Positions 4,084-47,006 of a stretch of 57,000 nucleotides of DNA are shown here, piece after piece. Source of the DNA: Pirellula staleyi DSM 6068 (GTDB taxonomy: Bacteria; Planctomycetota; Planctomycetia; Pirellulales; Pirellulaceae); NCBI GenBank assembly GCA_945870455.1, contig CAMBSL010000002.1, positions 1 through 57,000 on the forward strand, in the 5' to 3' direction. Below the pieces are notes generated by a model. The model ran no database searches. It was not told where the DNA came from and saw only the letters and a program-made list of their open reading frames with translations. Both the position numbers and the translations under genes were made by a program. Each line of letters starts with the position of its first letter. The first letter of the stretch is position 1.

Positions 4084-4924
4084 CTTTGCGGTGCGAGTTG
4101 ACCTCAGATATGCCTTTCCTGCCTGCCCACGACCTATAGGTACGACTCTGCTGCGACTTTGCCTGATTGCGGCGATAGGGTTTGCAACCGTGATAGCAAG
4201 TTCGGTTTGCTCATGGTCACAAGAACCAACCTGGCCGGTCAAGCACACGGCAGGTCAATTTTGCATTCACAGCACCGTTCCGGCCGCTCAGTTCGAAGCG
4301 TACTTGCCGTCGCTATACAGCTTGCCAGCCGAATTGAGTCAGACTCTGCAGGTATCGGTTGCACAGGAATTGATACAAGTCGTGGTCCTTGAGAATCGTG
4401 AAGCGTTAGATGCTTATGCGCACAGAATATTTCCGAGCGCACCGAATCGCGGAGCGCTGTACATACGACACAGAGGACCTGGGCTGGTACTCACGTATTT
4501 CCATGACGGGTGGATTTGCGATGTTCGGCATGAGTGTACGCACGCCCTTTTGGATGTGAGCGGACTAACCCTGCCTCTTTGGCAAGACGAAGGATTGGCG
4601 GAGTATTTTGAAACGATTGGCGAAAATCCAATTGGGCACACGTCGCATTTGCAAGCGACTCGTTCGCAAGTTCGGTATGGCCAAGTTGTGGATTTGCAAA
4701 AAATGGAGAGGATGGAATTCGGTTCTGGCTTGAACCCCAAAGAGTACCGAGACGCGTGGAGCATCGTGACCTTTTTGCTCCACTCCTCGGAAGAGACTCG
4801 TTCAATGTATCAACAGTATCTGCAGGACCATCAGAGCAAGCGAGCAGTCGGTTTCTTAAGTCATCGACTAGCTCCAAAAATACCATCCTGGCGCGAAGCG
4901 TTTTCGGATTTCTACCGACGCTAA
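4067..4924 (+). CDS. Secreted gluzincin-like metallopeptidase (DUF1570-like)
   Basis: Protein of 285 residues with an N-terminal hydrophobic export signal (about residues 25-45). It carries a zincin motif HECTH at residues 155-159 and, 16 residues later, WQDEGLAEYFE, which supplies the third zinc-ligand glutamate in gluzincins; this spacing is like that in DUF1570-type peptidases. A zinc peptidase acting in the periplasm is therefore likely. Its start lies inside the preceding gene (17-bp overlap). The stop codon TAA at 4922-4924 lies inside the terminal inverted repeat of a dispersed element, so the insertion abuts or created the present 3' end. Confidence 0.75.
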   Translation: MNSLSDFAVRVDLRYAFPACPRPIGTTLLRLCLIAAIGFATVIASSVCSWSQEPTWPVKHTAGQFCIHSTVPAAQFEAYLPSLYSLPAELSQTLQVSVAQELIQVVVLENREALDAYAHRIFPSAPNRGALYIRHRGPGLVLTYFHDGWICDVRHECTHALLDVSGLTLPLWQDEGLAEYFETIGENPIGHTSHLQATRSQVRYGQVVDLQKMERMEFGSGLNPKEYRDAWSIVTFLLHSSEETRSMYQQYLQDHQSKRAVGFLSHRLAPKIPSWREAFSDFYRR

Positions 4925-5068
4925 GCACAACGGTATGAGTCTTCGAGTGAAACAAACCGAGTGCCGAAGGGCGATAGCCTCGGTTCTCGACGAATGTCGA
5001 GCAATTGGAAAACCGGGGCTATCGCCCAACGGCTAATTGGGTTGAAAAACAGTTGCGAATGCGCTAGG
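4920..5068 (+). repeat. MITE-like palindromic element, copy 1
   Basis: About 149 bp. The left end reads gctaagcaca; the right end is a degenerate inverted copy (aatgcgctagg). Between the ends is a long imperfect hairpin: gggcgatagcctcgg pairs with ccggggctatcgccc around a smaller inner stem ctcgac/gtcgag. Two more copies lie at 37768-37917 and 46857-47006, nearly identical over their length. No open frame in it looks coding. It begins at the stop codon of the HExxH gene and lies 155 bp upstream of a solitary DUF1501 gene. Confidence 0.85.
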
Positions 5069-5223
5069 GCAGAGAAACGGAGCGAAGCCAGAGTCCCCTC
5101 GAGAATAGCAAGCGTAGAAATCCTAGTGTCGTATCACTCTCGTGTCGCAATTGTGGTTTTTAGCTGGTAAGATAGAAATCTAGTGACTTGACGATCTCCA
5201 CCTACCTACCACAATGCCTCTCG

Positions 5224-6678
5224 ATGAAATCACATCACTCTTGGCATCATCCCCTGGTTCCGCGACGGACAGCGATTCAAGCAGGAGCCATTGGAATCCT
5301 CGGTCTCGGGTTGAATCATCTGTCGGGGCTGCGTCAAGCCAATGCGGCAGCTCAGTCCATGCTGCCCCTCGGCAAAGCCAAGTCATGCATCTTCATTTTT
5401 TTGTCCGGCGGTCTCGCTCAACACGAGAGCTTCGACATGAAGCCGAACGCTCCGGAAAACATCCGCGGAGAATTCAAGCCGATCGCCACGCGTACGCCCG
5501 GCCTCCAAATTTGCGAACATTTACCGATGCTAGCGGACCGAAGTCCGTTATGGGCCTTATGTCGATCGCTGACGCACGGTTCGAATGATCATTCTGCGGC
5601 ACATCACATCATGCTTACCGGGCATTCGCAACTGCCGACAGGTTTCAACCCGAACGGCTCGAATCGCACCGATCGACCCTCCATTGCTTCGGTCGCCGGT
5701 CGTGCGACCCATCCCCGAAACAATCTGCCCACGGCGGTTATGCTTCCTGAGCGTTTGGTTCATTCCACGGGCAGAATCATTCCTGGCCAACACGCAGGTC
5801 AGATGGGATCGCAACACGACCCGTGGATGATTGAGGCTTCGCCATTTCATAATACTTCATATGGTGCATTCCCCGAGTTTGGCTTTGACCATCAAGATCG
5901 CGGTAAGCCGGACGCGCGCCTCTTCCAAGCTCCACAGCTAACATTGCCCGAGGGCTTAGGCCTCAAGGTGGTGGCGGGACGCCTGCAATTACTCGAATCG
6001 CTGAAGCATCAAAGGAGCGTTTTGTCAGGCTTTGCCGAAACGCAATCATTCGATCGGCTTCGGCAAGGTGCGATTTCACTGCTGACCGAGCAGACCGTAC
6101 AACAAGCGTTGGACGTGACGCATGCGGATGCGAAGACGCTCGACCGCTACGGACGCAATTCCTTTGGTTGGTCTTTGTTGATGGCGCGTCGGTTGGTATC
6201 GTCTGGAGTGAACTTGGTTCAAGTTAATTTAGGGAACGACGAAACGTGGGACACGCACGGCAATGCGTTTCCCCACTTGAAGAACGCCCTCCTACCGCCC
6301 ACGGATCGTGCGGTGTCGGCATTGCTAGACGACCTTCAATCGACAGGTGAACTCGACGAGACACTGATCGTGATGGCGGGTGAGTTTGGTCGTACTCCAC
6401 AGATCACATTGCTTCCATCCCATTACAAATTGCCAGGTCGCGATCATTGGGGAGCAGTCCAATCGGTCTTCTTCGCGGGTGGTGGTGTGCGCGGTGGCAA
6501 CGTGGTTGGGAAATCGGACGCGCATGGTGCATATCCAGCAGAATTACCAGTCAAACCCGAGAATTTTGCGGCCACCATCTACCACGCACTCGGAATTCCC
6601 TCGACTGCCGTTTGGAAAGATGCTGCCGACCGACCGCACCACATTTACCAAGGCGAACCTATCGCCGGCCTTGTTTAA
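5224..6678 (+). CDS. DUF1501 domain protein
   Basis: DUF1501 protein, related to the alkaline-phosphatase/sulfatase fold and abundant in planctomycetes, where it is usually encoded beside DUF1549/DUF1553 cytochrome proteins; this copy stands alone. A Tat-like signal VPRRTAIQAGAIGILGLGL opens the protein, then FIFLSGGLAQHESFDMKP (first conserved block), ICEHLPML, and near the end MAGEFGRTPQI and GRDHWG (metal-site-like blocks). I chose the ATG at 5224; an upstream in-frame TTG at 5188 would add 12 residues that look like leader. Its stop overlaps the convergent nfeD-like stop by three bases. Confidence 0.9.
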   Translation: MKSHHSWHHPLVPRRTAIQAGAIGILGLGLNHLSGLRQANAAAQSMLPLGKAKSCIFIFLSGGLAQHESFDMKPNAPENIRGEFKPIATRTPGLQICEHLPMLADRSPLWALCRSLTHGSNDHSAAHHIMLTGHSQLPTGFNPNGSNRTDRPSIASVAGRATHPRNNLPTAVMLPERLVHSTGRIIPGQHAGQMGSQHDPWMIEASPFHNTSYGAFPEFGFDHQDRGKPDARLFQAPQLTLPEGLGLKVVAGRLQLLESLKHQRSVLSGFAETQSFDRLRQGAISLLTEQTVQQALDVTHADAKTLDRYGRNSFGWSLLMARRLVSSGVNLVQVNLGNDETWDTHGNAFPHLKNALLPPTDRAVSALLDDLQSTGELDETLIVMAGEFGRTPQITLLPSHYKLPGRDHWGAVQSVFFAGGGVRGGNVVGKSDAHGAYPAELPVKPENFAATIYHALGIPSTAVWKDAADRPHHIYQGEPIAGLV

Positions 6679-7250
6679 TCGATCGATTCAAGGTCGAGAT
6701 CCGAGATGGGGCGGTCGAGTCCGGTACCGTGAGACATGGGTGCATCCGTTGGTTTTTTTTCACGGATCACAGCAACTACCAATCGGCCAACATCCAAACG
6801 AACGATTCGAACCGCTTTGCCAGCGTCGATCGGCCCGCTTTCGCTAAAAGCTTCAAAAGTCTGATCGCCGATCTGAACCAAGCCGCTCGGAATCATCTCG
6901 TTTAACACAGTTCCCTCCGCACCGATGAGCGAGCCGGCATTTAATGATTTGGCGGCGTCGGACCAAACATACGTTCCGGACGGTTCGGGCTTGCTGATCA
7001 TTTGCCTCCCGAGCGGAGTCAGTGGCCATACCTCGACAAACAACCACATCATGATCGGAATGGCTCCCATCGAAGCGATGAGCATCCAGATCCCAGAAGT
7101 CGTGCTATGACGAAATGCAAAAACAACTGCCGCAAATGCAAGGCAAGCAGTTACACCGATGAGTACGCCGCCGCTTGGGATCATCAAATCGATTGCAAAG
7201 ATGACCATGGCCGCCAAAAACAACAGCAAGGCTATTGTGATAAATGACAA
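6675..7250 (-). CDS. NfeD-like membrane protein
   Basis: 191 residues: four hydrophobic segments in the first ~75 residues, then a soluble C-terminal domain with the small beta-barrel (OB-fold) pattern GAEGTVLNEMIPSGLVQIGD typical of NfeD proteins. NfeD proteins usually partner a stomatin-like protein or carry a ClpP-class protease domain; neither is visible here, so this is a short stand-alone form. The start is TTG at 7250, preceded by GGAG about 8 nt upstream. It lies 66 bp downstream of ilvB on the same strand and may share its transcript. Tail-to-tail with the DUF1501 gene. Confidence 0.82.
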   Translation of the reverse strand: MSFITIALLLFLAAMVIFAIDLMIPSGGVLIGVTACLAFAAVVFAFRHSTTSGIWMLIASMGAIPIMMWLFVEVWPLTPLGRQMISKPEPSGTYVWSDAAKSLNAGSLIGAEGTVLNEMIPSGLVQIGDQTFEAFSESGPIDAGKAVRIVRLDVGRLVVAVIREKKPTDAPMSHGTGLDRPISDLDLESID

Positions 7251-7316
7251 ATCCTGCTCCTTCTCAATCGGACCTCAATCCCGGTCAACCCTTGTTTCAC
7301 AGACTTTGAAAGGCTC

Positions 7317-9095
7317 TCATTTCAAAATCATGTCGTCGACCGTTTTACCACCCGGAATCATTGGCAATACGTGCTCTTGATACGGCACTTCGACGTCTAA
7401 TACGAACGGTCCGGGGTAACTAATCATTTCTTGCAACGCAGCTTCCAAGTCTGACTTCTTGCGAACCGTCGCCGCACCACATCCGTAACCTTTCGCTATT
7501 TGGACGAAATTCGGATAGCGATTGGACGCATAGGAATGTGCAACCATCGACCCAGGTCCCTTAGCTTCCTCATGATCGATTGGGCCGAGATACGTATGGG
7601 CCCGATTGGCTCCCTCGAATCGATCTTCCCATTGGACCACCATGCCGAGGTGTTGGTTGTTCAGCAACAGCACCTTCACAGGCAGCTTTTCACAGTGCAA
7701 TGTAGCCAGTTCTTGGATGTTCATTTGAAAGGAACCATCGCCATCGATGTCGATTACCAGTGAGCCAGGATTGGCTGCTTGAACTCCCATGGCGGCCGGC
7801 AAGCCGAATCCCATCGTCCCCAGTCCACTGCTGCTATGCCAAGTTCGAGGCCTTCGGAACTGAAAGAACTGCGCTGCCCACATTTGGTGTTGGCCCACAC
7901 CGACCGTGACATAGGTGTCGCGGTTCTTGGTCATGTTCGATAGCGTACGGATCGCATGCTGCTGGAGAATTCCGTCGAAATTGTCGTCGTAAGCGAACGG
8001 GTGTTTTGCCTTGAGCGCACTGCAATTGGTAATCCAAGCAGAGATGTCATCTGGCTTTTCGACGATCTTGTTGAGTTCCGTTAACGCAAAGTTGATTTCG
8101 CTTCGAACCGAGATATGCGCAATCTTGTTCTTGTTGAGTTCGGATGCGTCGATATCGACGTGAATGATTTTTGCATTCTTTGCAAAGGATGCGAGATTTC
8201 CAGTCACCCGGTCGTCAAATCGAACCCCCAGAGCGATCAACAAATCGCAATCACGAACTGCATAGTTTGCGTACGCGCTACCGTGCATCCCCAGCATGTC
8301 GAGCGACAACGGACCATCGGCAGGATAAAGCCCTAGCCCCATAACCGTCATGGTGACTGGGATTCCGGTGTTTTCCGCCAGCAGTCGGAGTTCCGCAGCG
8401 GCTTCACCGGTCACAACCCCTCCACCGCAATAGATTACCGGTCGCTTGCTGTGCTTGATGGCGGCAGCTATTTGTCGGATTTGTTCGGGCTTTGCATTGG
8501 GGTGCTTAGTAGGTTGATAGCCGGGCAAGTTCATTGGCACATTCCAATCCACTTCGCAACTGCTGAGCTGAACATCCTTTGGCATGTCAACCAAGACGGG
8601 ACCAGGTCGCCCTGTCGTCGCAATGTGAAATGCTTCTTTCATCACGCGCGGGACATCCTTTACGTCGGTAACCAAGTAATGGTGCTTGGTGATACCGCGG
8701 CAGACTTCCACGATCGGCGTCTCTTGAAATGCATCGGTGCCGATAACGTGCGTTGGTACCTGTCCGGTAATTGCCAGCAACGGAATGCTATCCATTTTTG
8801 CATCGGCAATACTGGTCACAAGATTCGTGGCACCCGGACCGCTTGTGGCCATAACGACACCGATCTTGCCGGTGGATCGTGCGTAGCCCTGGGCCGCAAA
8901 AGCGCCCCCTTGTTCGTGTCGTGGCAGAATCGTCCTGAGCCGATCGGAGTACCGTGTCAATGCTTGGTGCATCGGCATGCTGCATCCGCCAGGATATGCG
9001 AAAATGACTTCTACGCCGTGGTCCACAAGCGACTTCACCACGATCTCGGCACCGGTCATGACAGTGGTTGCTTGACGGCTAGAAACAGAAGCCAT
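7317..9095 (-). CDS. ilvB: Acetolactate synthase, large subunit
   Basis: 592-residue thiamine-diphosphate enzyme that condenses two pyruvates (or pyruvate and 2-oxobutyrate) in branched-chain amino acid synthesis. Clear blocks in order: [13 protein letters not shown], catalytic-glutamate segment [16 protein letters not shown] (Glu61), [30 protein letters not shown], the central FAD-type domain (RFDDRVTGN), and the TDP-Mg site [12 protein letters not shown] followed by [15 protein letters not shown]. These are features of the biosynthetic enzyme rather than the catabolic one. ATG start with AGGAGA 7 nt upstream. No ilvN regulatory subunit or ilvC is adjacent, unlike in many bacteria. Confidence 0.96.
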
Positions 9096-9389
9096 TCGTT
9101 TTCTCTCCTAAAACTCAGGGGGGAACAGTTTGTTGAAAAAATCTACAATTGAACAAAATTACGATCGCGAACAACTTGCTCCTTAAATACTAAGGAATTC
9201 TCGCGAATTACATGCTGTCGAAGTATACCACGAGGTTGGCCACTCGTCGAATGAACTGTGTTCCGAAAGGAGTCAGCATCGCTGCTTCGGGTTCAGCATC
9301 GCATCGGAAAATGGTTACAATCCTTTTTGCAAGATTTCAATGCCTAGCGATCCAGTTAGCCGCAGTAACTCTCACCGAAACAACCGATT

Positions 9390-10247
9390 ATGGCAAGAAT
9401 GACCCAGGTTCCCATCTTTTTGGCGATTGCGATTACGCTTTTGGGCAACACTTGCTCGCGGGCACAGTTGGATAGCTTGGAGGTAACTCCCGACGTCGTT
9501 TACGGTCACAAGGATGGCATGGCATTGACCTTTGATGTTTTTCAACCAAAGGAAAAAGCGAACGGAGTTGGAGTTCTTTTTATGGTGAGTGGCGGTTGGG
9601 TTTCGACGTGGACTGAGCCGAAACAGATTGCTCCAATGTTTCGAAATCTGTCCGATTCCGGCTACACAGTTTTCGCGGTCAGGCATGGCAGCAGCCCTAG
9701 GTATTTTGTTCCTGAATGCGTTAGCGACGTCCAGCTTGCCCTTAGCTTCATCGCCAAAAACTCGGATAGATGGCAGGTCGATCCGAAACGATTGGGCGTG
9801 TTCGGATTTAGCGCAGGTGGACACCTATCCTTGATGCTTGGAACGGTGGGTGGTTCAAAACAGCAGAACGACTCGATTGCCCGCGTGGCGGCTGTGGTCG
9901 CTGTCTTTCCGCCAACCGATCTAGCTCCTTACGTCGATTTTAAAAGTCCCAGACGCGAGCAATTTCCAGCCCTAAGATTCGAGCCATCGCAAGCGGAGTC
10001 GGTCTCACCACTCATGAAAGTGACTTCAGACGATGCACCCACATTGTTAGTTCACGGAGATCAAGATGAATTGGTTCCGTTGTGGCACAGTGAAAAAATT
10101 AAGGAAGCGTTCGACGGAGTCAAAGTGGATAGTAAATTGGTTGTCATCAAAGGGGCTGCGCACGGATTCGACGCGAACGGGAATCGCTTGCTCGCAAAGG
10201 AAATGGTCGAATGGTTCGACAGCCACTTGGTGAAAGTTCAGAAATAG
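9390..10247 (+). CDS. Secreted alpha/beta-hydrolase (esterase)
   Basis: 285 residues: signal peptide (IFLAIAITLLGNTCSRAQ), then an alpha/beta-hydrolase fold of the BD-FAE/acetyl-esterase type. Nucleophile elbow GFSAGG with Ser141; the acid is probably the Asp of HGDQDELVP and the base the His of GAAHGFDANG near the C-terminus. Expected to cleave ester groups outside the cytoplasm, perhaps on acetylated polysaccharide or on small esters. It starts 294 bp from the divergent ilvB start, so the two presumably have separate promoters in that gap; I see no leader peptide or riboswitch there. An oxidoreductase gene follows 50 bp downstream. Confidence 0.86.
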   Translation: MARMTQVPIFLAIAITLLGNTCSRAQLDSLEVTPDVVYGHKDGMALTFDVFQPKEKANGVGVLFMVSGGWVSTWTEPKQIAPMFRNLSDSGYTVFAVRHGSSPRYFVPECVSDVQLALSFIAKNSDRWQVDPKRLGVFGFSAGGHLSLMLGTVGGSKQQNDSIARVAAVVAVFPPTDLAPYVDFKSPRREQFPALRFEPSQAESVSPLMKVTSDDAPTLLVHGDQDELVPLWHSEKIKEAFDGVKVDSKLVVIKGAAHGFDANGNRLLAKEMVEWFDSHLVKVQK

Positions 10248-10297
10248 AAATAACTTAAATAGGAGACTAATCGCGGAACGCCAACGAACATGATTGC

Positions 10298-11416: not shown

Positions 11417-11428
11417 GCTTCTAGCCTG

Positions 11429-12046: not shown

Positions 12047-12055
12047 TGCGATTCG

Positions 12056-35697: not shown

Positions 35698-35698
35698 A

Positions 35699-36802: not shown

Positions 36803-36838
36803 CGAATTTTCCCACTCTATCGATTTCGAATCACGGAA

Positions 36839-37786
36839 ATGCAAACAAGAAAACTTGGTAATTCCGACCTGCACATCACCCCGGTTGGAGTTGGCGCTTG
36901 GGCGATGGGGGGTTCTGGATGGGCGTTTTCGTGGAGTCATCAAGATGACAAGGATTCGATCGACGCAATTCATGCAGCCTTGGACGCGGGCATAAACTGG
37001 ATTGATACCGCTGCGGTGTACGGTCTTGGACATTCCGAAGAAGTCGTAGCGAAAGCCCTGGCTTCGTATCGCGGCAAGAAACCGTATGTGTTCACCAAAT
37101 GCGAGAGAGCTTGGGATTCCAACCGTCAGATTGTCAAATCCCTCAAGCCAGACTCCATTCGAGCCGAATGCGAAGCCAGCTTGAAACGCCTCAATGTCGA
37201 CGTAATCGATCTTTATCAAATTCACTGGCCAGAGCCGGATGAAGATATCGAACTCGGTTGGTCGACGCTCGTCGATTTGCAGCAGGAAGGGAAGCTTCGA
37301 TGGATCGGTGTTTCGAATTTTAGCGTTTCTCAAATGAAACGCTTGCAAGCAATTGCACCGATCACTTCCCTACAACCTCCCTACTCATTGATTCGTCCAG
37401 AAGCCGAGTTGGAACTCTTGCCCTACGCGATCGAGAATAACATTGGCGTTATCGTATATTCTCCGATGGGCTCTGGCATGCTTAGCGGTTCGATGACGCG
37501 AGAACGAATCGCAAGTCTTCCGCCAGACGATTGGCGCAATCGAAATGCACACTTTCAAGAGCCGCTTTTGTCGAAGAATTTAGTAGTTGCTCAACGTCTG
37601 AAAGAAATGGGAAATCAACTTGGCAAGAAAGCAGGAGAGCTCGCGATTGCCTACGTTTTGCGGAACCCAGCGGTCACGGCTGCCATCGTGGGATTTCGAA
37701 ACGCTGCTCAAGTTCAAGAACTCGTCGGGGCGATGGACTATCGTTTGCCTGACGATCTTCTCTCGGAACTAAGCACATTGGGTTGA
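36839..37786 (+). CDS. Aldo/keto reductase
   Basis: 315 residues, NADPH-dependent (alpha/beta)8 barrel that reduces carbonyls. The catalytic tetrad is present: Asp56 and Tyr61 in DTAAVYGLGHSE, Lys87 in FTKCER and His129 in LYQIHWPEPD. The late block AIVGFRNAAQV is the usual cofactor region. Substrate not predictable. The last five codons and the stop (cta agc aca ttg ggt tga) come from the left end of a 150-bp MITE-like element, so the element defines this C-terminus. Same strand as the two genes upstream, 36 bp away. Confidence 0.93.
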   Translation: MQTRKLGNSDLHITPVGVGAWAMGGSGWAFSWSHQDDKDSIDAIHAALDAGINWIDTAAVYGLGHSEEVVAKALASYRGKKPYVFTKCERAWDSNRQIVKSLKPDSIRAECEASLKRLNVDVIDLYQIHWPEPDEDIELGWSTLVDLQQEGKLRWIGVSNFSVSQMKRLQAIAPITSLQPPYSLIRPEAELELLPYAIENNIGVIVYSPMGSGMLSGSMTRERIASLPPDDWRNRNAHFQEPLLSKNLVVAQRLKEMGNQLGKKAGELAIAYVLRNPAVTAAIVGFRNAAQVQELVGAMDYRLPDDLLSELSTLG

Positions 37787-37917
37787 GTCTTCGAGTGAAA
37801 CAAAGTGAGTGCCATTGGGCGCTAGCCCCGGTTCTCGACGAACGTCGAGCAATTGGAAAACCGGGGCTAGCGCCCAACGGCTAATTGGGTTGAAAAACAG
37901 TTGCGGATGTGCTTGGC
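37768..37917 (+). repeat. MITE-like palindromic element, copy 2
   Basis: 150 bp, same orientation as copy 1. Left end actaagcacat, right end gatgtgcttggc, i.e. inverted ends with one or two changes. The internal hairpin pairs gggcgctagccccgg with ccggggctagcgccc; relative to the other copies both stems carry a matching change (gggcgc/gcgccc against gggcga/tcgccc), a compensating pair that keeps the stem intact. The left end overlaps the 3' end of the aldo/keto reductase gene. Confidence 0.88.
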
Positions 37918-39063: not shown

Positions 39064-39073
39064 CTTCGGTTTG

Positions 39074-39604: not shown

Positions 39605-41418
39605 GCTGACTGTCCACCTTGGATTTTATAACTCTCCAATTGCTTGGTTTCTTCGGCGACGCTACTGCCGTCGGGAGTTTCGTCCGATTTGGTGTTAAAC
39701 CACGAATCTTCGAATTTAACAAAGCCTGCTTCTCCGCGAGAACCACGCTTCATGGCTACATTGGTTGTCAAAGCGATCACCGCATCGGCCATGGCGACTT
39801 CGGGATAACACTTTGGCCGATTGCTTGGATCAGGATTGCGGATGCAGTAGGCCCAATGCTCAATTTCCTCCGTGTATCCCTTGCTGACGGGCCAGTTGCC
39901 CGTGGCGGCCTTTGCGACGGGTGCAGCAGATCCACCGCTAGCTTGGGTGTCCAACGCATAACCGCCTTTGGTCGATTTCACCCCAGCGGCCGCGGCTGTG
40001 TCCGAACCCGCGTAGAGCAAGACGTCCTGCTCTTTCTCGATGATCATGGTACCCTTGGTTCCCAGCACGACTTCGCCGTAACCGCCATAACCATTTCCAT
40101 TGATGGACGAGTAGGTCACAACAATCTTCTTGTTCGGATCTTCCGAGTAACCAGCGATCTTCTTCATGTTGTTTGGGAGCTTGTAACCCGGTTCGAATTT
40201 TTCGCTGTACTCAGGACCAGGAAACTCGAATGAGCAATAGACGTGATCGTCGCAATCCCGGTCGGCTGGGAAAATATGCCGTCCACCGACTGCATGCACA
40301 GACAGGGGGTGCGCTTTCTTTCCATCGGCTCGCAAAGCACTGCAGAAGATCGTCGCAGCGTCCAACTGGTGGCTACCGAGTTCGGCCATTAGACCGCCGC
40401 CTGTTCGATCAAAGATTCGCCATCGAACTAGTTCTTCCATGGCGGATCTCGTCCGTCCACCCATTTCCCTGTCGAGATATCCGTACTGGGCTGCATCGAA
40501 ATTCTTATCTTCCATCCAAGCTGCCCATTGAGCAACTTTTTTGGCAATCAAGTCTTTTTCCGCTGGGCTGGTGGCTGCATCTAACTCCTTGCGGAATTTT
40601 GCAAGTTCCGTCTCAATCCTGTTCAATCCGCCTTTGGCTGGCTCGTCACCTGGGAGAGGTGGAAACCAAGAGTCGTTGCCGGGCAAATTGCCGCGGTGCC
40701 ATTGTGCGCGGATGTGATGCAACTGACCGATCATGCCCCAACGGAGCAAGTGAACTGCGTTGTCGTAAAGGACGCTGTAGTGACGTTGGTGACCGGTTGC
40801 ACAATGCAGAGGATTGCCACTGGAATCGCTCTTGCTTTCGGCAACACGGGCCATCACCTTGCACTGAGCAATGTTGTGGGCCATGAGTTTTTCGGTCAAA
40901 ACATGTTTGCCCTTCATCATTGCTTTCACCGCGATCGGAGCATGCAAATGCAAAGGCAAGGCGATGATCACGGCTTCGATGGAATCGTCGTCGAGCAAGG
41001 CTTCGATACCGCCATTGCTGCCGTCGTAAACTTTAACGCTTTTACGCGCTTCTGCTTCGCTTGCGTACTTGTATTGTTTGATCAATCCTGGGCGAACGGC
41101 TGCTGCCGCAGGAGAAGACCAGTCGCCATGGAAAGCGCGGTAAATGCTATACGGGCGAATGTCGGCAATGGCGGTCACTTGAACATACTCAGGCGAACAA
41201 CCACCGATCAACACGTTTCCTTCGTCACCAGTGCCGATAACACCGACACGAACTGGGTCACCCACCTTTTGGTAGCCGAAATACATCGCACCAAGGCCCG
41301 CACCGGAGACAGCTCCGGCTGCGACGACGCCCTGCATGAACTCACGGCGAGTGAAGCCAACTGCCTCAAAATAATTGGATTGCCCGGTAGCGCGTTCTTC
41401 AGGAGTAAGCTGATTCAT
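39601..41418 (-). CDS. Large Gfo/Idh/MocA oxidoreductase, Tat-exported
   Basis: 605 residues. Tat signal FTRREFMQGVVAAGAVSGAG, Rossmann start VRVGVIGTGDEGNVLIGG, then IALPLHLHAPIAVKAMMKGK and HVLTEKLMAHN (the EK catalytic block). About 200 residues longer than ordinary members because of extra segments in the middle (around residues 260-330), as in other secreted planctomycete forms. Probably oxidises sugar-like substrates in the periplasm; substrate unknown. Follows the DoxX-like gene by 58 bp and overlaps the next gene by 4 bp. Confidence 0.9.
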   Translation of the reverse strand: MNQLTPEERATGQSNYFEAVGFTRREFMQGVVAAGAVSGAGLGAMYFGYQKVGDPVRVGVIGTGDEGNVLIGGCSPEYVQVTAIADIRPYSIYRAFHGDWSSPAAAAVRPGLIKQYKYASEAEARKSVKVYDGSNGGIEALLDDDSIEAVIIALPLHLHAPIAVKAMMKGKHVLTEKLMAHNIAQCKVMARVAESKSDSSGNPLHCATGHQRHYSVLYDNAVHLLRWGMIGQLHHIRAQWHRGNLPGNDSWFPPLPGDEPAKGGLNRIETELAKFRKELDAATSPAEKDLIAKKVAQWAAWMEDKNFDAAQYGYLDREMGGRTRSAMEELVRWRIFDRTGGGLMAELGSHQLDAATIFCSALRADGKKAHPLSVHAVGGRHIFPADRDCDDHVYCSFEFPGPEYSEKFEPGYKLPNNMKKIAGYSEDPNKKIVVTYSSINGNGYGGYGEVVLGTKGTMIIEKEQDVLLYAGSDTAAAAGVKSTKGGYALDTQASGGSAAPVAKAATGNWPVSKGYTEEIEHWAYCIRNPDPSNRPKCYPEVAMADAVIALTTNVAMKRGSRGEAGFVKFEDSWFNTKSDETPDGSSVAEETKQLESYKIQGGQSA

Positions 41419-41476
41419 TTGAAAAAATCCTATCGATAAAAGATAGTAAAGGGATTGGTTCAGTAATTATTTGCAA

Positions 41477-42439
41477 CTAGATGCGGGGTTGTACGATCGA
41501 TTGACTGTTTCGGTTCCAAAAACTCCATGGAATGAAATCCAGACCAGCGTATCTCCCCGCATCCGAGAATGCGAGAAAGAAACAACTCACCATTTCAATA
41601 GCTTGATAGTAAGTCGGCTGGGAACCATAGCTCCCAGGAAATTGAGTCAAAACAACGGACGCCAAGAAAATTCCGGCCGCCAATGCGGCCAAGGGTGTTA
41701 ACAATCCGAGGATCAAAAGGATGCCAACACACATGTCAAAAATGGGAATGACTTTGTCGATCAGTTTCACATCGATCGGAGGAGAGCCCGGCAACTTGAA
41801 GTTCGCAGCGAGTTTGCCCTTATCGATTTGAACCTCGGTTGCCAGTGCGTTGATGGCCGTTTCGAATTCGTCGTTAATTTTGTCAATGTCATAAAGGGCA
41901 GGTTTTATGAGCGCCTTCCATTTGGTTTCGATTTCATCGCGTTGCTTTCGCATCGACGAAACGTTGGATCTCATGGGGTCGTTTTCCAATTTGGAAACTC
42001 GCGGAATACCGTTTTTGTATTCGTCAATTTGAGGTTTCCACTCTTTGTAAACAGCGCCCAGTTGCTTTCGAGTTGCGCTAACGATGGTTTTGGTCTCGGC
42101 AGTTTGACCCTCGGTAAATTGGAACAATGCCCCCGCTTCCGAAGCGAACGCCTCATAGGCCTGCTTCATTTTTTCGTCATCTAGCCGAACCGAACCGTCA
42201 AAATCTGGCACCATGGCCTGAAACGTTTTCGCCAATGGGCCCTTGGCCCCCGAAAGAAAACCGGTCGACGAGAACCCTCCTTTTTGGACTTTGTCGGTCC
42301 CCTCCATGAAGAAGTGCCAACCGACAACCACCCTCAGTGCTATCAAGGCAAGTATGGCAAGAAAATTGAGCTGCGCTTTACGGAGGAGCATATTAAGCGG
42401 TTGGTGGGGAGGTGGAGTCGCGAAGGGTGCGCGGCTCAT
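41477..42439 (-). CDS. DoxX family membrane protein with large insert
   Basis: 320 residues. First helix LALIALRVVVGWHFFMEGTDKV is the DoxX start; the remaining helices (IPIFDMCVGILLILGLLTPL, AAGIFLASVVLTQFPG, YQAIEMVSCFFLAF) come only after a ~170-residue soluble insert (about 55-225) rich in Lys and Glu. Ordinary DoxX proteins are about 130-180 residues. DoxX proteins are linked to quinone or thiosulfate redox steps; here it precedes an exported oxidoreductase on the same strand, so it may act as its electron partner (inference). Confidence 0.8.
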   Translation of the reverse strand: MSRAPFATPPPHQPLNMLLRKAQLNFLAILALIALRVVVGWHFFMEGTDKVQKGGFSSTGFLSGAKGPLAKTFQAMVPDFDGSVRLDDEKMKQAYEAFASEAGALFQFTEGQTAETKTIVSATRKQLGAVYKEWKPQIDEYKNGIPRVSKLENDPMRSNVSSMRKQRDEIETKWKALIKPALYDIDKINDEFETAINALATEVQIDKGKLAANFKLPGSPPIDVKLIDKVIPIFDMCVGILLILGLLTPLAALAAGIFLASVVLTQFPGSYGSQPTYYQAIEMVSCFFLAFSDAGRYAGLDFIPWSFWNRNSQSIVQPRI

Positions 42440-42557
42440 GGTGCACCAAGTACCGCTTTTTAATCACCGTCATTCACGAATTATGTTCGAAAATCCCCCG
42501 TCAGCCAAGTCCGAATCGCGGATATCGCGTCACCTCTCACGGTTAAAGCCTCCGTCT

Positions 42558-42601
42558 CCACCGTTGAAACCTAACAATTCCATCGTTGAAACCTAACAAT
42601 T
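42558..42601 (+). repeat. 22-bp tandem duplication, intergenic
   Basis: Two 22-bp units with one base difference, sharing the core cgttgaaacctaacaatt. They lie between the divergent DoxX-like gene (42439) and the zinc-ribbon gene (42726). Nothing else was recognised in this 286-bp gap. Confidence 0.9.
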
Positions 42602-42725
42602 CGCGGTCTTAACTCCATTTGCCGACTGTTTTACGCACTTTCAACAAGCAATCGGATTTGCCGAGTGCTATCCTAAAGCTTGATGAATTGAAACATCATC
42701 TCGCAAACACTTCGGCAACTCTCCA

Positions 42726-44315
42726 ATGCAAATGTCTTTCCCTTGCAAATGCGGCAAGCAGATCCAGATTCCAGAACGCTCGTCGGAGGAACAACCGACC
42801 GCTTTCTATCAATGTGACGATTGCGGAATGCAATATCCCCTCCAAGGAGACGATTCCGACCGTCAAGGCGCCCCGGCAACCAGTCAAGGCGCCCTGGCAA
42901 CCGAATCCTCGACAGAGAAGGACGCAGGTCCGCCATCCGATTCTCAAGCCGATTCTCAAGCCGATTCTCAAGCCAATGACTCCCAAGGAGCAACGCCCGA
43001 ATTGGAGCTAGAACTGGAATGGGAGGCTGACGAGGAAGCTGAAGTCGCGTCTGCCGACAAGGGCGCTGGCCCAGAAATCGAGGCTCAAGCTCTACCGCAC
43101 GAATCTTTGCCGCACGAATCTACAGCTGGAGAACAAAATGGACCAGAAAGTGCCGTAGCTCCCTACGAGTTTGAACCGAACTGGAATGTCCTGAGCGCAG
43201 CTACTGCAAAGCGTCCCCGACAGGAAACACCTTTTTTGCGAAAGGTTGTTCCACCGGTTCTCGGTGGATTGGCCGCTTTACCGATCGCAACTGCCATTAT
43301 GTGGTATGGATTTGGGCGAGACATTGGAACGACTGGCCAGTACGTTTCACAGTATGTTCCGTGGATCGTGCCACAAAAACTAAGAGCGAATCGCTGGGAA
43401 ACCTGGGATGAGCCGATGGCGCAGAAGCAATCAGCCAAGCCTCGCCCCAAACGCGAGTCGTTTCCATCGCTCAACCGAAACGAGGACTCATCTAGGCCGC
43501 CCGTAATCGCCGAACGACCGGGATTCGCAACCGAAGACAACGAAAACAACAATAACAACGACGCGAACTCGGCGGTCTCCTCCACGGATTTGCCTGCGTT
43601 GCCATCGTTGCCCTCGTTGCCATCGTCCAACAAGAAGGACAATTTGGAATCGTCCAATAAGATGGAAAAGATGGACAAGATGGACAAGATGGACAAGATA
43701 GAATCGTCCAACAAGTCGGACGACACGAATTCCGAATCTCCCCGATCTCTTCAGAGCCTTGAATCGATCGCGTCAGGTATCTCGGAGTCCATAAGAATGC
43801 TTCGAATGCTCAAAAATGATTTATACGAAGCTCCCAAGAACACGAAAGTTGCCATGATCGGCGATTACTACCGAACGGCCAAGAAGCTCTCGGAGCAATC
43901 GGCATCGTTGCGAGGCCGATCCGCTTCGATCTGGAGAAAAGAACTCGAGAACATCGCGAAGGAGATTCTAAAAGACAAAAACTCAAAAACGGTAATGCAA
44001 TTCGGCCCGATCGGCAAACTGCCAGGGATCAACGCATCAGTAGAAAACGATTTCCTTGTTACGGTACTAAACATTGGCGAACGGGACGAACCTGATTCGA
44101 ACAATCTCTGGACGCTGAATGAGCCGTGGATTCTCGGCGAGCAAAAAGTCTCCGTCCAAATGCTTCCTGGCGCATGGAGGGTAGGTTCTGCAACGGTACC
44201 GACAACTTGCTTAGTTTTCGGTAGACTGATTGCTACTGGTTCGTCGAACGCGGAGTCGTCAACCACGGAGCGAGGCACATTGACGCTACAAGTCCATGCT
44301 GCGTTGCCCGAATAA
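42726..44315 (+). CDS. Zinc-ribbon membrane protein with low-complexity repeats
   Basis: 529 residues. N-terminal zinc ribbon CKCG (Cys7, Cys9) and CDDC (Cys30, Cys33), then an acidic low-complexity region with tandem SQAD units, one transmembrane helix (about 174-197), and a second low-complexity stretch with KMDKMDK units before a helical and a final beta-rich domain (GRLIATG near the end). No family recognised beyond the ribbon. In-frame tandem duplications: 21 bp x2 (42862-42903), 12 bp x3 (42939-42974), 9 bp x3.6 (43668-43699). The stop codon is inside a fourth repeat (44303-44382). ATG at 42726 or 42732. Confidence 0.72.
   Translation: MQMSFPCKCGKQIQIPERSSEEQPTAFYQCDDCGMQYPLQGDDSDRQGAPATSQGALATESSTEKDAGPPSDSQADSQADSQANDSQGATPELELELEWEADEEAEVASADKGAGPEIEAQALPHESLPHESTAGEQNGPESAVAPYEFEPNWNVLSAATAKRPRQETPFLRKVVPPVLGGLAALPIATAIMWYGFGRDIGTTGQYVSQYVPWIVPQKLRANRWETWDEPMAQKQSAKPRPKRESFPSLNRNEDSSRPPVIAERPGFATEDNENNNNNDANSAVSSTDLPALPSLPSLPSSNKKDNLESSNKMEKMDKMDKMDKIESSNKSDDTNSESPRSLQSLESIASGISESIRMLRMLKNDLYEAPKNTKVAMIGDYYRTAKKLSEQSASLRGRSASIWRKELENIAKEILKDKNSKTVMQFGPIGKLPGINASVENDFLVTVLNIGERDEPDSNNLWTLNEPWILGEQKVSVQMLPGAWRVGSATVPTTCLVFGRLIATGSSNAESSTTERGTLTLQVHAALPE
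42862..42974 (+). repeat. In-frame tandem duplications inside the zinc-ribbon gene
   Basis: A 21-bp unit containing gtcaaggcgccc occurs twice (42862-42903), and gattctcaagcc occurs three times (42939-42974). Both are multiples of three and keep the frame. A further 9-bp unit, aagatggac, is repeated at 43668-43699. Confidence 0.9.
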
Positions 44316-44382
44316 AATCACCGTTGCCCGAATAAAATCACCGTTGCCCGAATAAAATCACCGTTGCCCAATTAAAATCATC
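44303..44382 (+). repeat. 20-bp tandem repeat spanning a stop codon
   Basis: gttgcccgaataaaatcacc is repeated four times (the fourth copy with three changes). The first copy holds the last codons and stop of the zinc-ribbon gene (ttg ccc gaa taa). The array ends 28 bp before the next gene's start. Confidence 0.93.
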
Positions 44383-44410
44383 ATTCAGATCAGAAAGTGC
44401 TGGAGAGAGA

Positions 44411-44806
44411 ATGTCGTTAGAATCAGATCGCGATGCAATCTTGGATTTGACCCAAAAACTACTTGTCGCGATTACTTCGGGGGATTGGGATACGTACATC
44501 GTCCTGTGCGATGAATCCCTAACGTGCTTTGAACCCGAAGCGCTGGGCAACCTCGTGGACGGGCTCGAGTTTCACAACTACTACTTCAACCTCCCCTCAC
44601 CTCCAACCTCAGCCCCAGTCCAGTCCACAATCGTGGCGCCCCACATTCGCATCATGGGTGACGTTGCCGTCATCGCCTATGTTCGCTTGACGCAACGGTT
44701 CAACGAAGGCAAGGCGGTTTCGTCTTCGATGGAAGAAACACGAGTTTGGCATCGACAACAAGGCAAGTGGAAACATGTTCATTTTCATCGAAGCCCCGCC
44801 CGCTAA
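44411..44806 (+). CDS. Stand-alone CaMKII-association-domain-like protein
   Basis: 131 residues with the NTF2-like association-domain pattern of calcium/calmodulin-dependent kinase II: DLTQKLLVAITSGDWDTYI, LTCFEPEALGNLVDGLEFH and HIRIMGDVAVIAYVRLTQ, ending with the VWHRQQGKWKHVHFHRS strand pair. In animals this domain multimerises the kinase; bacterial stand-alone versions are of unknown function, perhaps small-molecule binding. ATG start after GGAGAGAG. nadE starts 9 bp after its stop, so the two are likely cotranscribed. Confidence 0.9.
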   Translation: MSLESDRDAILDLTQKLLVAITSGDWDTYIVLCDESLTCFEPEALGNLVDGLEFHNYYFNLPSPPTSAPVQSTIVAPHIRIMGDVAVIAYVRLTQRFNEGKAVSSSMEETRVWHRQQGKWKHVHFHRSPAR

Positions 44807-44815
44807 GCGCCAATC

Positions 44816-46855
44816 ATGCATCCACTAGGCTTCCTGCGAATTACGTCGGTTTGCACACCAACTAGCGTAGCAAATCCGTTGGCAAATCGGCAAGCGATCG
44901 AAAAGGCGATCGGCTTGTTCGCGGATTCGGACGTCCTTGTTTTCGGTGAATTGGGCTTAAGCGGTTACACCTGTGGGGAGCTCTTTACCCAAAAAACGCT
45001 TTTGGATGCGTGCGTTCGGGAGTTGATCCACCTCGCGCAAGCGGTCCAAACTCGGCAGTTCATCGTCGTCGGATTGCCGTTGTCGATCGATGGAAAGTTG
45101 TTCAACGTGGCTGCGGTTATCTCCCAAGGGAAAATCTTGGGAATCGTTCCCAAGCAGCATTTGCCAACTTACCAAGAGTTTTACGAAAGCCGATGGTTTC
45201 AATCGGGCTCGATGCCGCTCCCAAGCGAAGTTCACTTGTCTCTCGCAAGTTCCGAGAGCGGAACCGATTCCTTCTTTCGATCCACTGTTTTGGTTCCCTT
45301 CGGCACGGATCTGTTGTTCACATTCGGCCAAGTTACCGTTGGCATTGAGATTTGCGAAGACCTGTGGGTACCGATTCCGCCCAGCGCATGCCAAGCGATT
45401 GCAGGGGCAAATGTGTTGCTCAACCTATCTGCGAGCAACGAAACGATAGGCAAAGCATCCTATCGAAAACGTTTGGTGGAGACTCAGTCCGGCAAGTGCA
45501 TTGCGGCCTACGTATATGCAAGTGCTGGGCCTTCGGAATCGACGACAGACCTCGTCTTTGGAGGCCACTGTTTGATCGCGGAGAATGGCAGCCTTTTGGC
45601 CGAGTCTCAGCGTATTGGGACGGGTCTCAACATAGCTTCGGCTGCCCGTGAGGATGGAGTGACCAGTTTTGCGACAGCCGAAATCGATATAGATCGACTG
45701 GATCATGATCGTCGTGTCGCAGGTACAATGCCTCAACCCCAATCGCGAGAGTTTCATCGATCGTTTCGCCGCATTGCATTTGAATTGGAAGTCGAATCCA
45801 CTCCACTCAAACGATTCGTAGACGCACACCCGTTTGTACCAAGTGCGTCCACCGAGCTTGAGCAACGATGCGCTGAGATCTTCGAGATCCAATGCGCCGC
45901 GCTTGCAAAACGTGTCTCGCAAATTCCAGTCGACCTGCCCCTCGTGATAGGTGTGTCTGGTGGGCTTGATAGCACGCTTGCATTGATCGTGGCAGCGAAA
46001 ATGTTCGATGCAATGAGCTGGGATCACCGACGCTTGGTTGGCATCACCATGCCAGGTTTCGGCACATCCGCTAAAACCAAAGACAACGCGGTCGAATTGA
46101 CGCGGCTCCTAGGGATGACCTTAGAAACAATCGATATCCGCGATCGTTGCTTCGGTATCTTTCAAGACTTGAAACATAAGCCTTTTGGAATAGCCTTGGG
46201 GGGAAAAACTTGGCAGACACTCCAGCATGAGCTTGAGCAACTGCCACTGGAAAGACGAAACGATCTTGTCTTTGAGAACGTCCAAGCGAGAATGCGAACG
46301 ATGCTTTTAATGAACCGCGGATTTGTGATTGGGACGGGCGACCTGTCGGAGTCAGCGCTGGGTTGGAGCACGTACAACGGTGATCACATGTCGATGTACA
46401 ACGTCAACTGTTCCGTGCCAAAGACACTGGTGAAGTTTCTTGTCCAACATGTGGCCATGAACCGTTACGACGGAGATATCCGAAGAGTTTTGCTCGACAT
46501 CGTCGATACACCGATCTCCCCAGAGCTGTTGCCTCTTTCAGAAAACAAGTCAGTGCACCAGAGTACGGAGGCCACAATCGGCCCCTACGAACTGCATGAT
46601 TTCTTCCTGTACCATTTCGTTCGCGGCGGTGCCTCGCCGGACAAACTTAGGTTTTTGGCAAAGAATGCAAAGTTTTACGTCGCCTATACCGAAGACGAAA
46701 TAGAGAAAGTACTCGCGACATTCTTGCGACGGTTTTTTGCTTCGCAGTTCAAGCGTAGTTGTGTGCCAGACGGCCCAAAGGTGGGGACCGTTTCGCTTTC
46801 GCCGCGTGGGGATTGGCGAATGCCAAGCGACGCCGATCCAGCCGCTTGGCTCTGA
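44816..46855 (+). CDS. nadE: Glutamine-dependent NAD+ synthase
   Basis: 679 residues, fused nitrilase-type glutaminase and synthase that amidates deamido-NAD. Glutaminase triad: Glu in FGELGLSGYTCGEL (about 45), Lys in VPKQHLPTY (about 113), Cys in EICEDLW (about 180). Synthase P-loop VIGVSGGLDSTLAL (about 378-391), the late TGDLSESALGWSTYNGD block and YELHDFFLYHF. Length matches bacterial glutamine-type enzymes. ATG 9 bp after the preceding stop. A MITE-like element starts 1 bp after the stop. Confidence 0.96.
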   Translation: MHPLGFLRITSVCTPTSVANPLANRQAIEKAIGLFADSDVLVFGELGLSGYTCGELFTQKTLLDACVRELIHLAQAVQTRQFIVVGLPLSIDGKLFNVAAVISQGKILGIVPKQHLPTYQEFYESRWFQSGSMPLPSEVHLSLASSESGTDSFFRSTVLVPFGTDLLFTFGQVTVGIEICEDLWVPIPPSACQAIAGANVLLNLSASNETIGKASYRKRLVETQSGKCIAAYVYASAGPSESTTDLVFGGHCLIAENGSLLAESQRIGTGLNIASAAREDGVTSFATAEIDIDRLDHDRRVAGTMPQPQSREFHRSFRRIAFELEVESTPLKRFVDAHPFVPSASTELEQRCAEIFEIQCAALAKRVSQIPVDLPLVIGVSGGLDSTLALIVAAKMFDAMSWDHRRLVGITMPGFGTSAKTKDNAVELTRLLGMTLETIDIRDRCFGIFQDLKHKPFGIALGGKTWQTLQHELEQLPLERRNDLVFENVQARMRTMLLMNRGFVIGTGDLSESALGWSTYNGDHMSMYNVNCSVPKTLVKFLVQHVAMNRYDGDIRRVLLDIVDTPISPELLPLSENKSVHQSTEATIGPYELHDFFLYHFVRGGASPDKLRFLAKNAKFYVAYTEDEIEKVLATFLRRFFASQFKRSCVPDGPKVGTVSLSPRGDWRMPSDADPAAWL

Positions 46856-46856
46856 C

Positions 46857-47006
46857 GCTAAGCACATCCGCAACTGTTTTTCAACCCAATTAGCCGTTGG
46901 GCGATAGCCCCGGTTTCCCAATTGCTCGACATTCGTCGAGAACCGGGGCTATCGCCCTTCGGCTATCAGTTTGTTTCACTCGAAGACTCAACCCGATGTG
47001 CTTAGC
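46857..47006 (-). repeat. MITE-like palindromic element, copy 3 (inverted)
   Basis: 150 bp in opposite orientation to copies 1 and 2. The best-preserved ends: left gctaagcacatc and right gatgtgcttagc are perfect 12-bp inverted repeats. The internal hairpin gggcgatagccccgg / ccggggctatcgccc is complete. It starts 1 bp after the nadE stop and lies 81 bp upstream of a solitary DUF1501 gene. Confidence 0.9.

Follow-up and report, generated by a model that had tools for sequence, protein, structure and literature searches.

RUP of pneumococcus, an IS630-Spn1-type miniature inverted-repeat transposable element (MITE), is a non-coding sequence of about 107 bp that occurs in more than 100 copies, carries terminal inverted repeats (TIRs) like those of an IS630-family element, has TA in its target and is over-represented between convergent genes (PMC2229807, PMC3049150). 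Two further pneumococcal repeats are BOX, a modular element that supplies the stop codon to 36 of 58 overlapping coding sequences, and SPRITE, a terminator-like one located near the 3' ends of convergent genes; TA-flanked IS630 ends do not figure in what the consulted part of that paper says of them (PMC3049150). GTAG- and CGTC-tagged REPs and REPINs are palindromic sequences located behind genes, for the most part where the neighbouring genes are tandem or convergent, and their ends often supply a stop codon (PMC3733652). The Correia or NEMIS elements of Neisseria are MITEs with 107- and 155-bp forms that form hairpins in transcripts, the 155-bp form being almost only intergenic and the 107-bp form often being fused into reading frames (PMC2229807). 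Among the matches listed from titles and abstract openings in open-licence PubMed Central, no paper dealt with the planctomycete elements reported here, a result that speaks for those matches and not for the printed literature as a whole.

We analysed a window of 57,000 nucleotides from Pirellula staleyi DSM 6068 (the own genome below), for which a preliminary description had claimed three copies of a MITE-like element, each at a stop codon and the third inverted. We located all three repeats, each about 146 bp long, and copy 3 is indeed inverted relative to copies 1 and 2, which are 93% and 92% identical to it, respectively. The features are as follows, where G016 is a 93% identical genome of the same genus and G009 a further genome used for comparison.

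4922-5067, + strand: MITE copy 1, both target TAs counted; the right TA has decayed to AG
4922-4924, + strand: TAA stop of the gene at 4067-4924, made of the target TA and the first A of the element
36839-37786, + strand: aldo/keto reductase gene, last codons supplied by copy 2
37770-37915, + strand: MITE copy 2, right TA present as TG; site also occupied in G016 and G009
44816-46855, + strand: NAD synthase / carbon-nitrogen hydrolase gene, preceding copy 3
46859-47004, - strand: MITE copy 3, with a TA on either side; site unoccupied in G016
46859-46868, + strand: TIR TAAGCACATC, first end of copy 3
46995-47004, - strand: TIR TAAGCACATC, second end of copy 3
46890-46966, no strand: central palindrome of copy 3, common to other MITE types, with arms at 46890-46915 and 46941-46966

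The position at a stop codon holds for copies 1 and 3, the target TA of the latter (46859-46860) being separated by three bases from the preceding TGA stop at 46853-46855, but not for copy 2, whose stop came with the element: it interrupts the final codons of the aldo/keto reductase gene, whose reading frame now closes at a new TGA (37784-37786) inside the insertion. All three copies fold more strongly than shuffled sequences (z = -5.6 for copy 1, -7.6 for copy 2 and, for copy 3, -10.6 on one strand and -11.2 on the other), with none of 200 shuffles folding as well, and Rfam at its gathering score gave two matches in the window, neither of them at a MITE copy.

The expectation of many genomic copies was borne out by 64 full and 21 partial matches in about 1.02 Mb of the own genome, a targeted sample chosen around the listed matches, several of the partial ones being fragments of a single rearranged copy or of one truncated at a contig end. 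Genome-wide, a pattern of the hairpin arms allowing up to three mismatches gave 185 matches, versus 6 for its reversed control. The ends read TA|AGCACATC, with TA at both ends in 48 of the 64 full copies. Given its length of about 146 bp, its non-coding sequence, its TIR TAAGCACATC, its many copies and the TA duplication that marks IS630-related MITEs, the element is an IS630-type MITE. It is alike in kind only to RUP, as far as the cited accounts describe the latter, belongs to a host of a different phylum, and has a large central palindrome common to other MITE types; its likeness to the Correia elements is again one of description, within the cited account. The matched change in the two hairpin arms of copy 2, previously read as a sign that the stem is under selection or gene conversion, is real in that copy, but there is no family-wide covariation. 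Over 42 of the 64 copies (of the rest, 20 have an unread letter at this pair and 2 a different letter), the variable pair was A-T in 26, A/G in 7, C/T in 6 and C-G in 3 (Fisher p = 0.66); the arm letters thus pair at random across the family, and we rejected compensating stem changes as a sign of selection.

The element duplicates TA upon insertion and has a clear target taste. The joined site is CTAG in 24 of the 48 own copies with TA at both ends, and over 74 distinct sites with TA on both sides, pooled from three genomes, C precedes the TA in 81% and G follows it in 68%; copies in G016 and G009 were dropped when they scored at or below 100 bits, were not near full length or lay less than 60 bp from the end of a stretch, while own copies L006 and the two in L101, which share flanks and are non-independent, were kept in the counts. 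Empty sites in a relative, which the preliminary description had named as support for transposition, were found as an exact single TA in another genome of the genus at six positions. The position of window copy 3 is such a site in G016, the own copies L026, L022, L029 and L134 are likewise empty there (L022 also in G009), and the own genome has an empty single-TA site where G016 carries its copy L194. Twelve stop-codon sites were queried, of which four were clean, two partial (L008 with TT, L112 with its right half only) and six without a spanning match; the stop codon at the four empty stop sites of G016 is TAG.

These sites bear on whether the copies were inherited from long ago and have ceased to move. 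Copy 2 occupies the same site in the own genome, G016 and G009, the left junction of copy 1 is occupied in G009 as well, and no partner transposase was found in the own genome, all of which would suit that reading; vertical divergence only, which would count against transposition, fits copies 1 and 2. However, it fails for copy 3, which together with four stop-codon copies has a clean empty site in the 93% identical relative, while one copy of G016 is absent from the own genome. Copies 1 and 2 are inherited and copy 3 is recent, the element has moved since the split from this close relative, and inheritance as the complete account, which the empty sites refute unless they are clean losses, is hardly credible. 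In principle, clean loss from G016 could also account for a site that is empty in that genome.

As for a transposase with matching ends, an IS630-family element with nearly the same ends exists in G016, but none was found in the own genome. This element (L148:849-2028) has ends TAAGCACGTC, matching those of the MITE except for one base (A/G), the similarity stopping after about 12 bp: its two ends read TAAGCACGTCGG and TAAGCACGTCCG, versus TAAGCACATCGG and TAAGCACATCCG in the MITE. Its target is C[TA]G, and its transposase matches DDE_3 with 98.6 bits and the NCBIfam model transpos_IS630 (NF033545) with 178 bits at a cut-off of 100. Transposases 43-44% identical to it are found in G006 (two copies) and G041 (one, broken by stops), flanked by the ends TAAGCAGGTG and TAAGCACCCG. 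A search for the G016 transposase gave no match in the own genome, assembled to 92.5% completeness in 386 pieces; the partner gene may be missing from the assembly or lost from the genome. The own IS630 copies were rejected as partners: there are two DDE_3 matches, at the ends of contigs C225 and C113, and the visible end in C225, GGACAGAACACTAG, is not the MITE TIR. Of the four DDE_3 loci of G009, three (L152, L154 and L155) have the outer end CTAGTGTCGCG, likewise unlike the MITE TIR. Judging from the terminal sequences, we infer that a transposase of the G016 type moves the MITE in trans.

We hold it very probable that the element is a non-autonomous IS630/Tc1-mariner-type MITE moved by an IS630 transposase of the genus, with a bias to gene 3' ends that stems mostly from selection. 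The DDE transposase of the genus's IS630-family element would bind the ends TA-AGCACRTC and insert the MITE at TA, mostly within CTAG, duplicating the TA. As both ends start with A after the target TA, insertion in a stop codon restores TAA, so that an insertion into TAG or TAA in either orientation leaves the protein unchanged. Selection would then remove insertions within genes and promoter-side spacers, and the survivors would cluster in stop codons and immediately past them, chiefly where two genes converge.

The claimed bias to gene 3' ends is real. With genes called by a home-made codon model, expectations taken from own-genome spacers only and target weights from the same insertions, 54 of the 84 insertions outside coding interiors lie in a stop codon or at most 40 bp behind one (20% expected), and 20 use the TA of the stop codon itself (8% expected); the 21 partial and 17 hairpin-only matches were left out of these statistics. 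Convergent spacers hold 37 of the 84 (18% expected) and divergent spacers 7 (32% expected), while coding interiors hold 7 of 91 insertions, versus 75% expected. However, a preference of transposition for the stop codon itself did not survive a null drawn within the spacers actually hit and with target weights, for which nine G016/G009 copies at shared sites and two edge cases had been excluded: 20 stop-codon insertions were observed against 22.3 expected, a share equal to chance given these spacers and the CTAG-type target. Since stop codons show no excess, tolerance suffices, and the stop codon as the target of the transposase is unneeded; the stop-restoring end, together with how seldom copies lie inside coding sequence or in promoter-side spacers, accounts for the share at stop codons. 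On this basis we infer that most of the position bias is due to selection rather than targeting.

Immediately downstream of stops, a smaller excess persists. Within the spacers hit, 54 insertions lie in a stop or at most 40 bp behind one against 47.4 expected, a number reached in 43 of 5000 draws, and in convergent spacers 16 lie 1-20 bp behind stops against 4.7 expected. Both figures would follow if the transposase or cofactors actively targeted gene 3' ends or stop codons, an explanation we regard as improbable given that stop codons themselves lack an excess once spacer and CTAG taste are allowed for; the stronger folding of target sites over 61 bp (-15.5 versus -13.1 kcal/mol in controls, 300 of the 997 control sites being used) is confounded by their higher G+C, and over 122 bp there is no significant difference from controls.

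Proximity to stops in convergent spacers is only partly explained by plain tolerance. Under the target-weighted null, 34 of the 37 insertions there lie in a stop or at most 40 bp from one against 13.3 expected, and 32 of 33 against 20.1 when spacers are limited to 400 bp. Promoter avoidance cannot act in such spacers. On the putative-benefit reading, the strong, nearly symmetric hairpin ends or protects the transcripts of both convergent genes, and positive selection keeps the copies in short 3' spacers. The strong folding of the window copies fits it, as does the finding that copies near 3' ends have no preferred orientation (29 same, 25 opposite), which is expected of a symmetric hairpin. 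Yet the excess becomes small when positions are redrawn within the convergent spacers actually hit (34 versus a target-weighted 31.7, with 347 of 5000 draws reaching the observed number), the variable arm position does not keep its pairing, orthologous sites open to comparison are few, and a terminator scan of 44500-48600, which covered copy 3 alone among the copies, lists nothing inside it. Hairpins that lack a T run do not necessarily terminate transcription. Because tolerance predicts much of the same pattern, we consider a benefit unlikely, though the least so of the alternatives to selection against harmful insertions.

The central palindrome consists of an arm TNAGCCG-N2..4-GGCGNTAGCCNCGGTT and its inverse, and lies centrally in TA-bounded MITEs with differing ends across the family Pirellulaceae. 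Core-bearing MITEs end in TAAGCACATC, TAGTGCTTTGTC, TAGTGCATCGTCC or TAAGCAGGTAGG; one with ends TAGTGSTGCGTC has one good arm only, and one with ends TAGCGGCTTGTC possibly bears the core. The 21 core identity pairs exclude three of ten hand-picked representatives that failed the core expression, namely those of G044 (without a good second arm), G153 (short second arm) and G139 (changed base). No core was seen in the three IS copies checked, of two kinds. The 3'-end bias in these other MITEs is mixed in small numbers, counted with a gene model trained on the own genome: in G032, whose outer ends are uncertain as the sequence past the supposed TA also recurs between copies, 1 of 15 lies in a stop and 1 of 15 within 40 bp, showing no bias, and the corresponding counts are 0 and 2 of 3 in G139, 1 and 1 of 3 in G044, 0 and 2 of 3 in G197, 0 and 1 of 3 in G194, and 1 and 1 of 2 for a second family of the own genome.

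The core arm resembles the tagged, bulged hairpin of REPs, and each arm can by itself form a bulged hairpin preceded by a TNAG tag, raising the reading that the element is a REP or REPIN moved by a RAYT (Y1) transposase. Y1_Tnp genes are common (13 in the own genome, 27 in G197), at one such locus of G197 (L393) a similar arm occurs as an inverted pair some 330 bp past the domain match, and a location behind genes and the supply of stop codons are known features of REPs, in the part of the literature consulted (PMC3733652). However, GTAG REPs are linked to Y1 tyrosine transposases, unlike the DDE ends and TA duplication of the window MITE, and its ends, duplication and candidate partner are all of IS630 type. 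No exact core arm was seen at the 30 Y1_Tnp loci read, of 58 matches, which argues against a RAYT origin of the core too. The tagged-hairpin motif is present at 2 of these 30 loci versus 3 of 30 and 0 of 38 other loci, and a looser motif at 8 of 30 versus 6 of 30 and 6 of 38, the comparison loci being a non-random draw. With no Y1 transposase flanked by the same palindrome among the loci read, we disfavour the REP/REPIN reading of the 150-bp unit as very improbable.

Under the preferred reading of an IS630-type MITE, most of the element's behaviour is already known from other bacteria, and the core recurring behind different ends is the unexpected part. We tentatively suggest, without giving it even odds, that the constant part of these elements is the inside and that the core is a working module passed between ends, or one working on while the ends follow changing transposases; its role would be, for example, that of a transcript hairpin or a host-factor site. 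The element offers a clean case, with empty sites, in which the end sequence of a transposon decides where its insertion is tolerated, since TA followed by A (or G) renders insertion into a stop codon harmless. It also carries a warning for annotation, as C-terminal and stop codons in these genomes can derive from mobile DNA. If the core is indeed a working module, the Pirellulaceae MITEs, with one inside and differing ends, would be a natural experiment on what the interior of a MITE is for.

Both the positions and the orientations of the three repeats described in the window were confirmed when the window was re-examined (its source genome comprises 5.84 Mb in 386 contigs). With both target TA positions counted, these copies of an IS630-type miniature element (MITE) are:

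4922-5067, MITE copy 1
37770-37915, MITE copy 2
46859-47004, MITE copy 3

Identity to copy 3 is 93% for copy 1 and 92% for copy 2, and all three copies, described as having a long internal hairpin, fold far more stably than shuffled sequences (in each case, none of 200 shuffles did as well). The upstream genes encode a weak DUF1570 match, an aldo/keto reductase and an NAD synthase/carbon-nitrogen hydrolase; two DUF1501 genes are located nearby. Compensating stem changes in copy 2 had been proposed as a sign of selection, a proposal that was not sustained, as the letters of the two arms are not significantly associated (p = 0.66); over the copies of the source genome the variable pair is A-T in 26, A/G in 7, C/T in 6 and C-G in 3, with 22 of 64 copies unscored or carrying other letters. 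The window also contains a dispersed repeat between called genes (48555-48777), with numerous matches in G016 and some in G009, two genomes of the same genus, at 81-90% identity; a match to the Rfam group II intron RF00029 (54026-54100, 45.3 bits, gathering 40); and one to the Acido-Lenti-1 RNA RF01687 (55192-55237, minus strand, 46.7 bits, gathering 37).

BLAST found at least 40 MITE copies with 92-100% identity in the source genome (40 of 123 candidates were scored), and the hairpin-arm pattern with up to 3 mismatches matched 185 times, versus 6 for the reversed pattern. As predicted, copies are numerous genome-wide: about 1.02 Mb of source sequence, picked around listed matches, gave 102 non-overlapping profile matches, namely 64 full, 21 partial and 17 hairpin only, some partial matches being pieces of one copy. 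With at most 10 candidates scored per genome, 16 of 80 genomes, the source genome among them, had any match; the best copies listed elsewhere are 98% (G009 and G016), 87% (G020), 84% (G023) and 76% (G002) identical. Three source-genome copies (L006, L101:2822 and L101:5205) have near-identical flanks, which suggests that the MITE was copied there as part of a larger segment. In three others (L090:77-300, L123:4400-4573 and L139:9580-9694) a hairpin arm is tandemly repeated, a hint that the hairpin causes slippage or disturbs replication.

The IS630 family has a taste for CTAG and duplicates TA. Here, 48 of the 64 full copies have TA at both ends, the rejoined site being CTAG in 24 of these 48, and at 74 distinct TA-TA sites from three genomes the TA has C before it in 81% of cases and G after it in 68%. 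G016 is 93% identical to the window across 14.8 kb and lacks copy 3, its site there being taacgc-TA-gcttc with a single TA; G009 has no clean empty site at this position, where other, unrelated-looking sequence is present. Reciprocally, one G016 copy is absent from the source genome, where the empty site again has a single TA. We queried twelve stop-codon sites outside the window for empty alleles in G016 and G009. Four (L026, L022, L029 and L134) are cleanly empty in G016, one of them also in G009; the L008 site is spanned in G016 but has TT instead of TA, coverage of the L112 site in G009 extends only rightwards from the target, and the remaining six have no spanning match in either genome. 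At all four clean G016 sites the stop codon is TAG, and in the occupied alleles it is TAA, or TGA where TA later became TG (L026 and L134). The reading of the repeats as MITEs is right, and the transposition that had been anticipated is shown by the empty sites in a relative, at copy 3 and at these four stop codons. Copies 1 and 2 are inherited: the source genome, G016 and G009 all carry copy 2 at one and the same position, and G009 shares the left junction of copy 1. When the flanks of copy 2 are rejoined, the reading frame terminates 28 bp past the insertion point, so a few native C-terminal residues of the aldo/keto reductase were probably lost, its terminal residues now being read from the element; this comes from the source genome alone, because the G016 and G009 sites are occupied too.

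A DDE_3 search of six genomes of the genus, following up the suggestion to look for a transposase with matching ends, gave eight matches in four genomes. One, at locus L148 of G016, belongs to a 1,180-bp element that has a CTAG target and the ends TAAGCACGTCGG and, inverted, TAAGCACGTCCG, compared with TAAGCACATCGG and TAAGCACATCCG in the MITE; the two elements also agree in how their left and right ends differ at bases 11-12. Its 373-aa open frame scores 98.6 bits for DDE_3 and 178 bits for NCBIfam transpos_IS630 (cut-off 100). Related transposases with 43-44% identity lie between the ends TAAGCAGGTG and TAAGCACCCG in G006 and G041, that of G041 being interrupted by stops. We infer that the G016 transposase may be the mover of the MITE. 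G016 thus has an IS630-family candidate, and no match to it was found in the source genome; matches occurred in 26 of 99 genomes searched, all at most 44% identical outside G016. Pieces of IS630-family transposases lie at two contig ends of the source genome (L150 at the start of C225, L153 at the end of C113). The visible end of the C225 piece is GGACAGAACACTAG, and an insertion sequence may have caused this assembly break.

For site classification, genes were called with a home-made codon model and MITE flanks were rejoined. The initial TA of a stop codon is used by 13 of 64 copies in the source genome, 6 of 22 in G016 and 3 of 16 in G009. Of the 93 insertions left after nine shared ones were removed, 7 fall in coding interiors, which are avoided (7 of 91, 75% expected), 2 fall at edges and the other 84 lie elsewhere. 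Relative to TA sites in the element-free spacers of the source genome, CTAG-weighted with weights taken from the insertions themselves, the 84 insertions are few in divergent spacers (7, 32% expected) and frequent in convergent ones (37, 18% expected), at stop codons (20, 8.3% expected) and at or within 40 bp behind a stop (54, 20% expected). The preference for stop codons suggested in the preliminary description is real in these data but mostly explained by tolerance. When positions were re-drawn for the 77 tandem- or convergent-spacer insertions, each inside its own spacer, there was no stop-codon excess (20 observed vs 22.3 expected), and the class at or up to 40 bp behind a stop was slightly high (54 vs 47.4, with 43 of 5000 draws reaching this value; for the convergent subset of 37, 34 vs 31.7, 347 of 5000). 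Compared with all convergent spacers, there is a marked excess 1-20 bp behind the stop (16 vs 4.7), with 34 of 37 insertions at or within 40 bp of it (13.3 expected; in spacers of at most 400 bp, 32 of 33 vs 20.1). The excess is weaker in tandem spacers (20 of 40 vs 10.8; up to 400 bp, 19 of 31 vs 14.1, p = 0.056), and orientation relative to the gene is unbiased (29 vs 25). Most of the stop-codon and 3'-end pattern is therefore accounted for by tolerance together with an element end that restores the stop, and there is a further preference for short convergent spacers.

A second MITE family in the source genome has the same central palindrome, or core, of two inverted arms, between the ends TAGTGCTTCGTCC and TAGTGCTTTGTC. 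Its loci are:

L116, second MITE family
L138, second MITE family
L137, second MITE family
L097, second MITE family
L108, second MITE family
L103, second MITE family
L105, second MITE family
L120, second MITE family

Two copies of the first family (L142:4341-4490, common to the source genome and G009, and L093:3679-3725) have a left end, CTAGTGCTTCGG, resembling the second family, as if by an exchange of ends. The core is also present in other genera. Allowing at most 2 mismatches, the arm occurs in 37 of 149 genomes of the taxonomic family, representing 18 of 68 genera, with one control match; the source genome scores 0 here, its arm being shorter by one base. G032 has 79 arm matches versus 0 control matches, and its core MITEs, whose true ends are uncertain, show no 3'-end bias (2 of 15 copies lie in a stop codon or at most 40 bp from one). 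About five core copies were read in each of six genomes, and in four the core lies between clear TA-bounded ends: TAAGCAGGTAGGCAGG in G139, TAGTGCATCGTCC in G197, TAGTGCTGCGTC and TAGTGGTGCGTC in G044 (with a single good arm), and TAGTGGTTTGT and TAGTGCTTTGT in G194. The copies read in G144 and G170 have no clear ends, those of G170 having several arms in tandem. Since the clear ends give TAA or TAG from the target TA onward, each of these MITE types could restore a stop codon. Among 21 pairs from seven hand-picked representatives (three of ten were dropped, the core expression not matching both arms), mean identity is 0.80 in the core (lowest 0.67, shuffled 0.58) and 0.57 in the outer parts (shuffled 0.51). 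A check of three IS630-family copies, representing two kinds, did not find the core arm.

Because each arm alone folds into a tagged, bulged hairpin, we examined a link to RAYTs, the Y1 transposases associated with REP palindromes. Y1_Tnp genes are common, numbering 13 in the source genome, 9 in G016, 5 in G032, 4 in G139 and 27 in G197. The exact arm was seen at none of the 30 Y1_Tnp loci read (of 58 matches), and the tagged-hairpin motif is not commoner there (2 of 30) than at other loci (3 of 30 and 0 of 38), a looser form occurring at 8 of 30 versus 6 of 30 and 6 of 38. At one Y1_Tnp locus (L393), a similar arm occurs as an inverted pair some 330 bp behind the domain match. Separately, a Y1_Tnp gene on contig C99 of G016 (L368:1343-1990) has hairpin repeats TTAGCCCATGGCGTAAGCCATGGG on one side and an inverted variant on the other, likely a REP-RAYT unit.

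In the portions of the literature cited here, pneumococcal RUP is an IS630-type MITE that targets TA (PMC2229807); over-representation between convergent genes is described for RUP, BOX and SPRITE, and 36 of 58 genes overlapping a BOX take their stop codon from it (PMC3049150); and GTAG REPs frequently supply stop codons (PMC3733652); the main text of a review of prokaryotic MITEs (PMC10969869) contains neither "stop codon" nor "IS630". The planctomycete MITE, like RUP, is of IS630 type, targets TA and is common between convergent genes, and like BOX and GTAG REPs it can supply the stop codon of a gene; it therefore belongs to an already known kind. Less usual are the well-documented stop-restoring geometry and the core shared between MITE types, and this core, found in MITEs whose ends differ, is the lead that most deserves following up.
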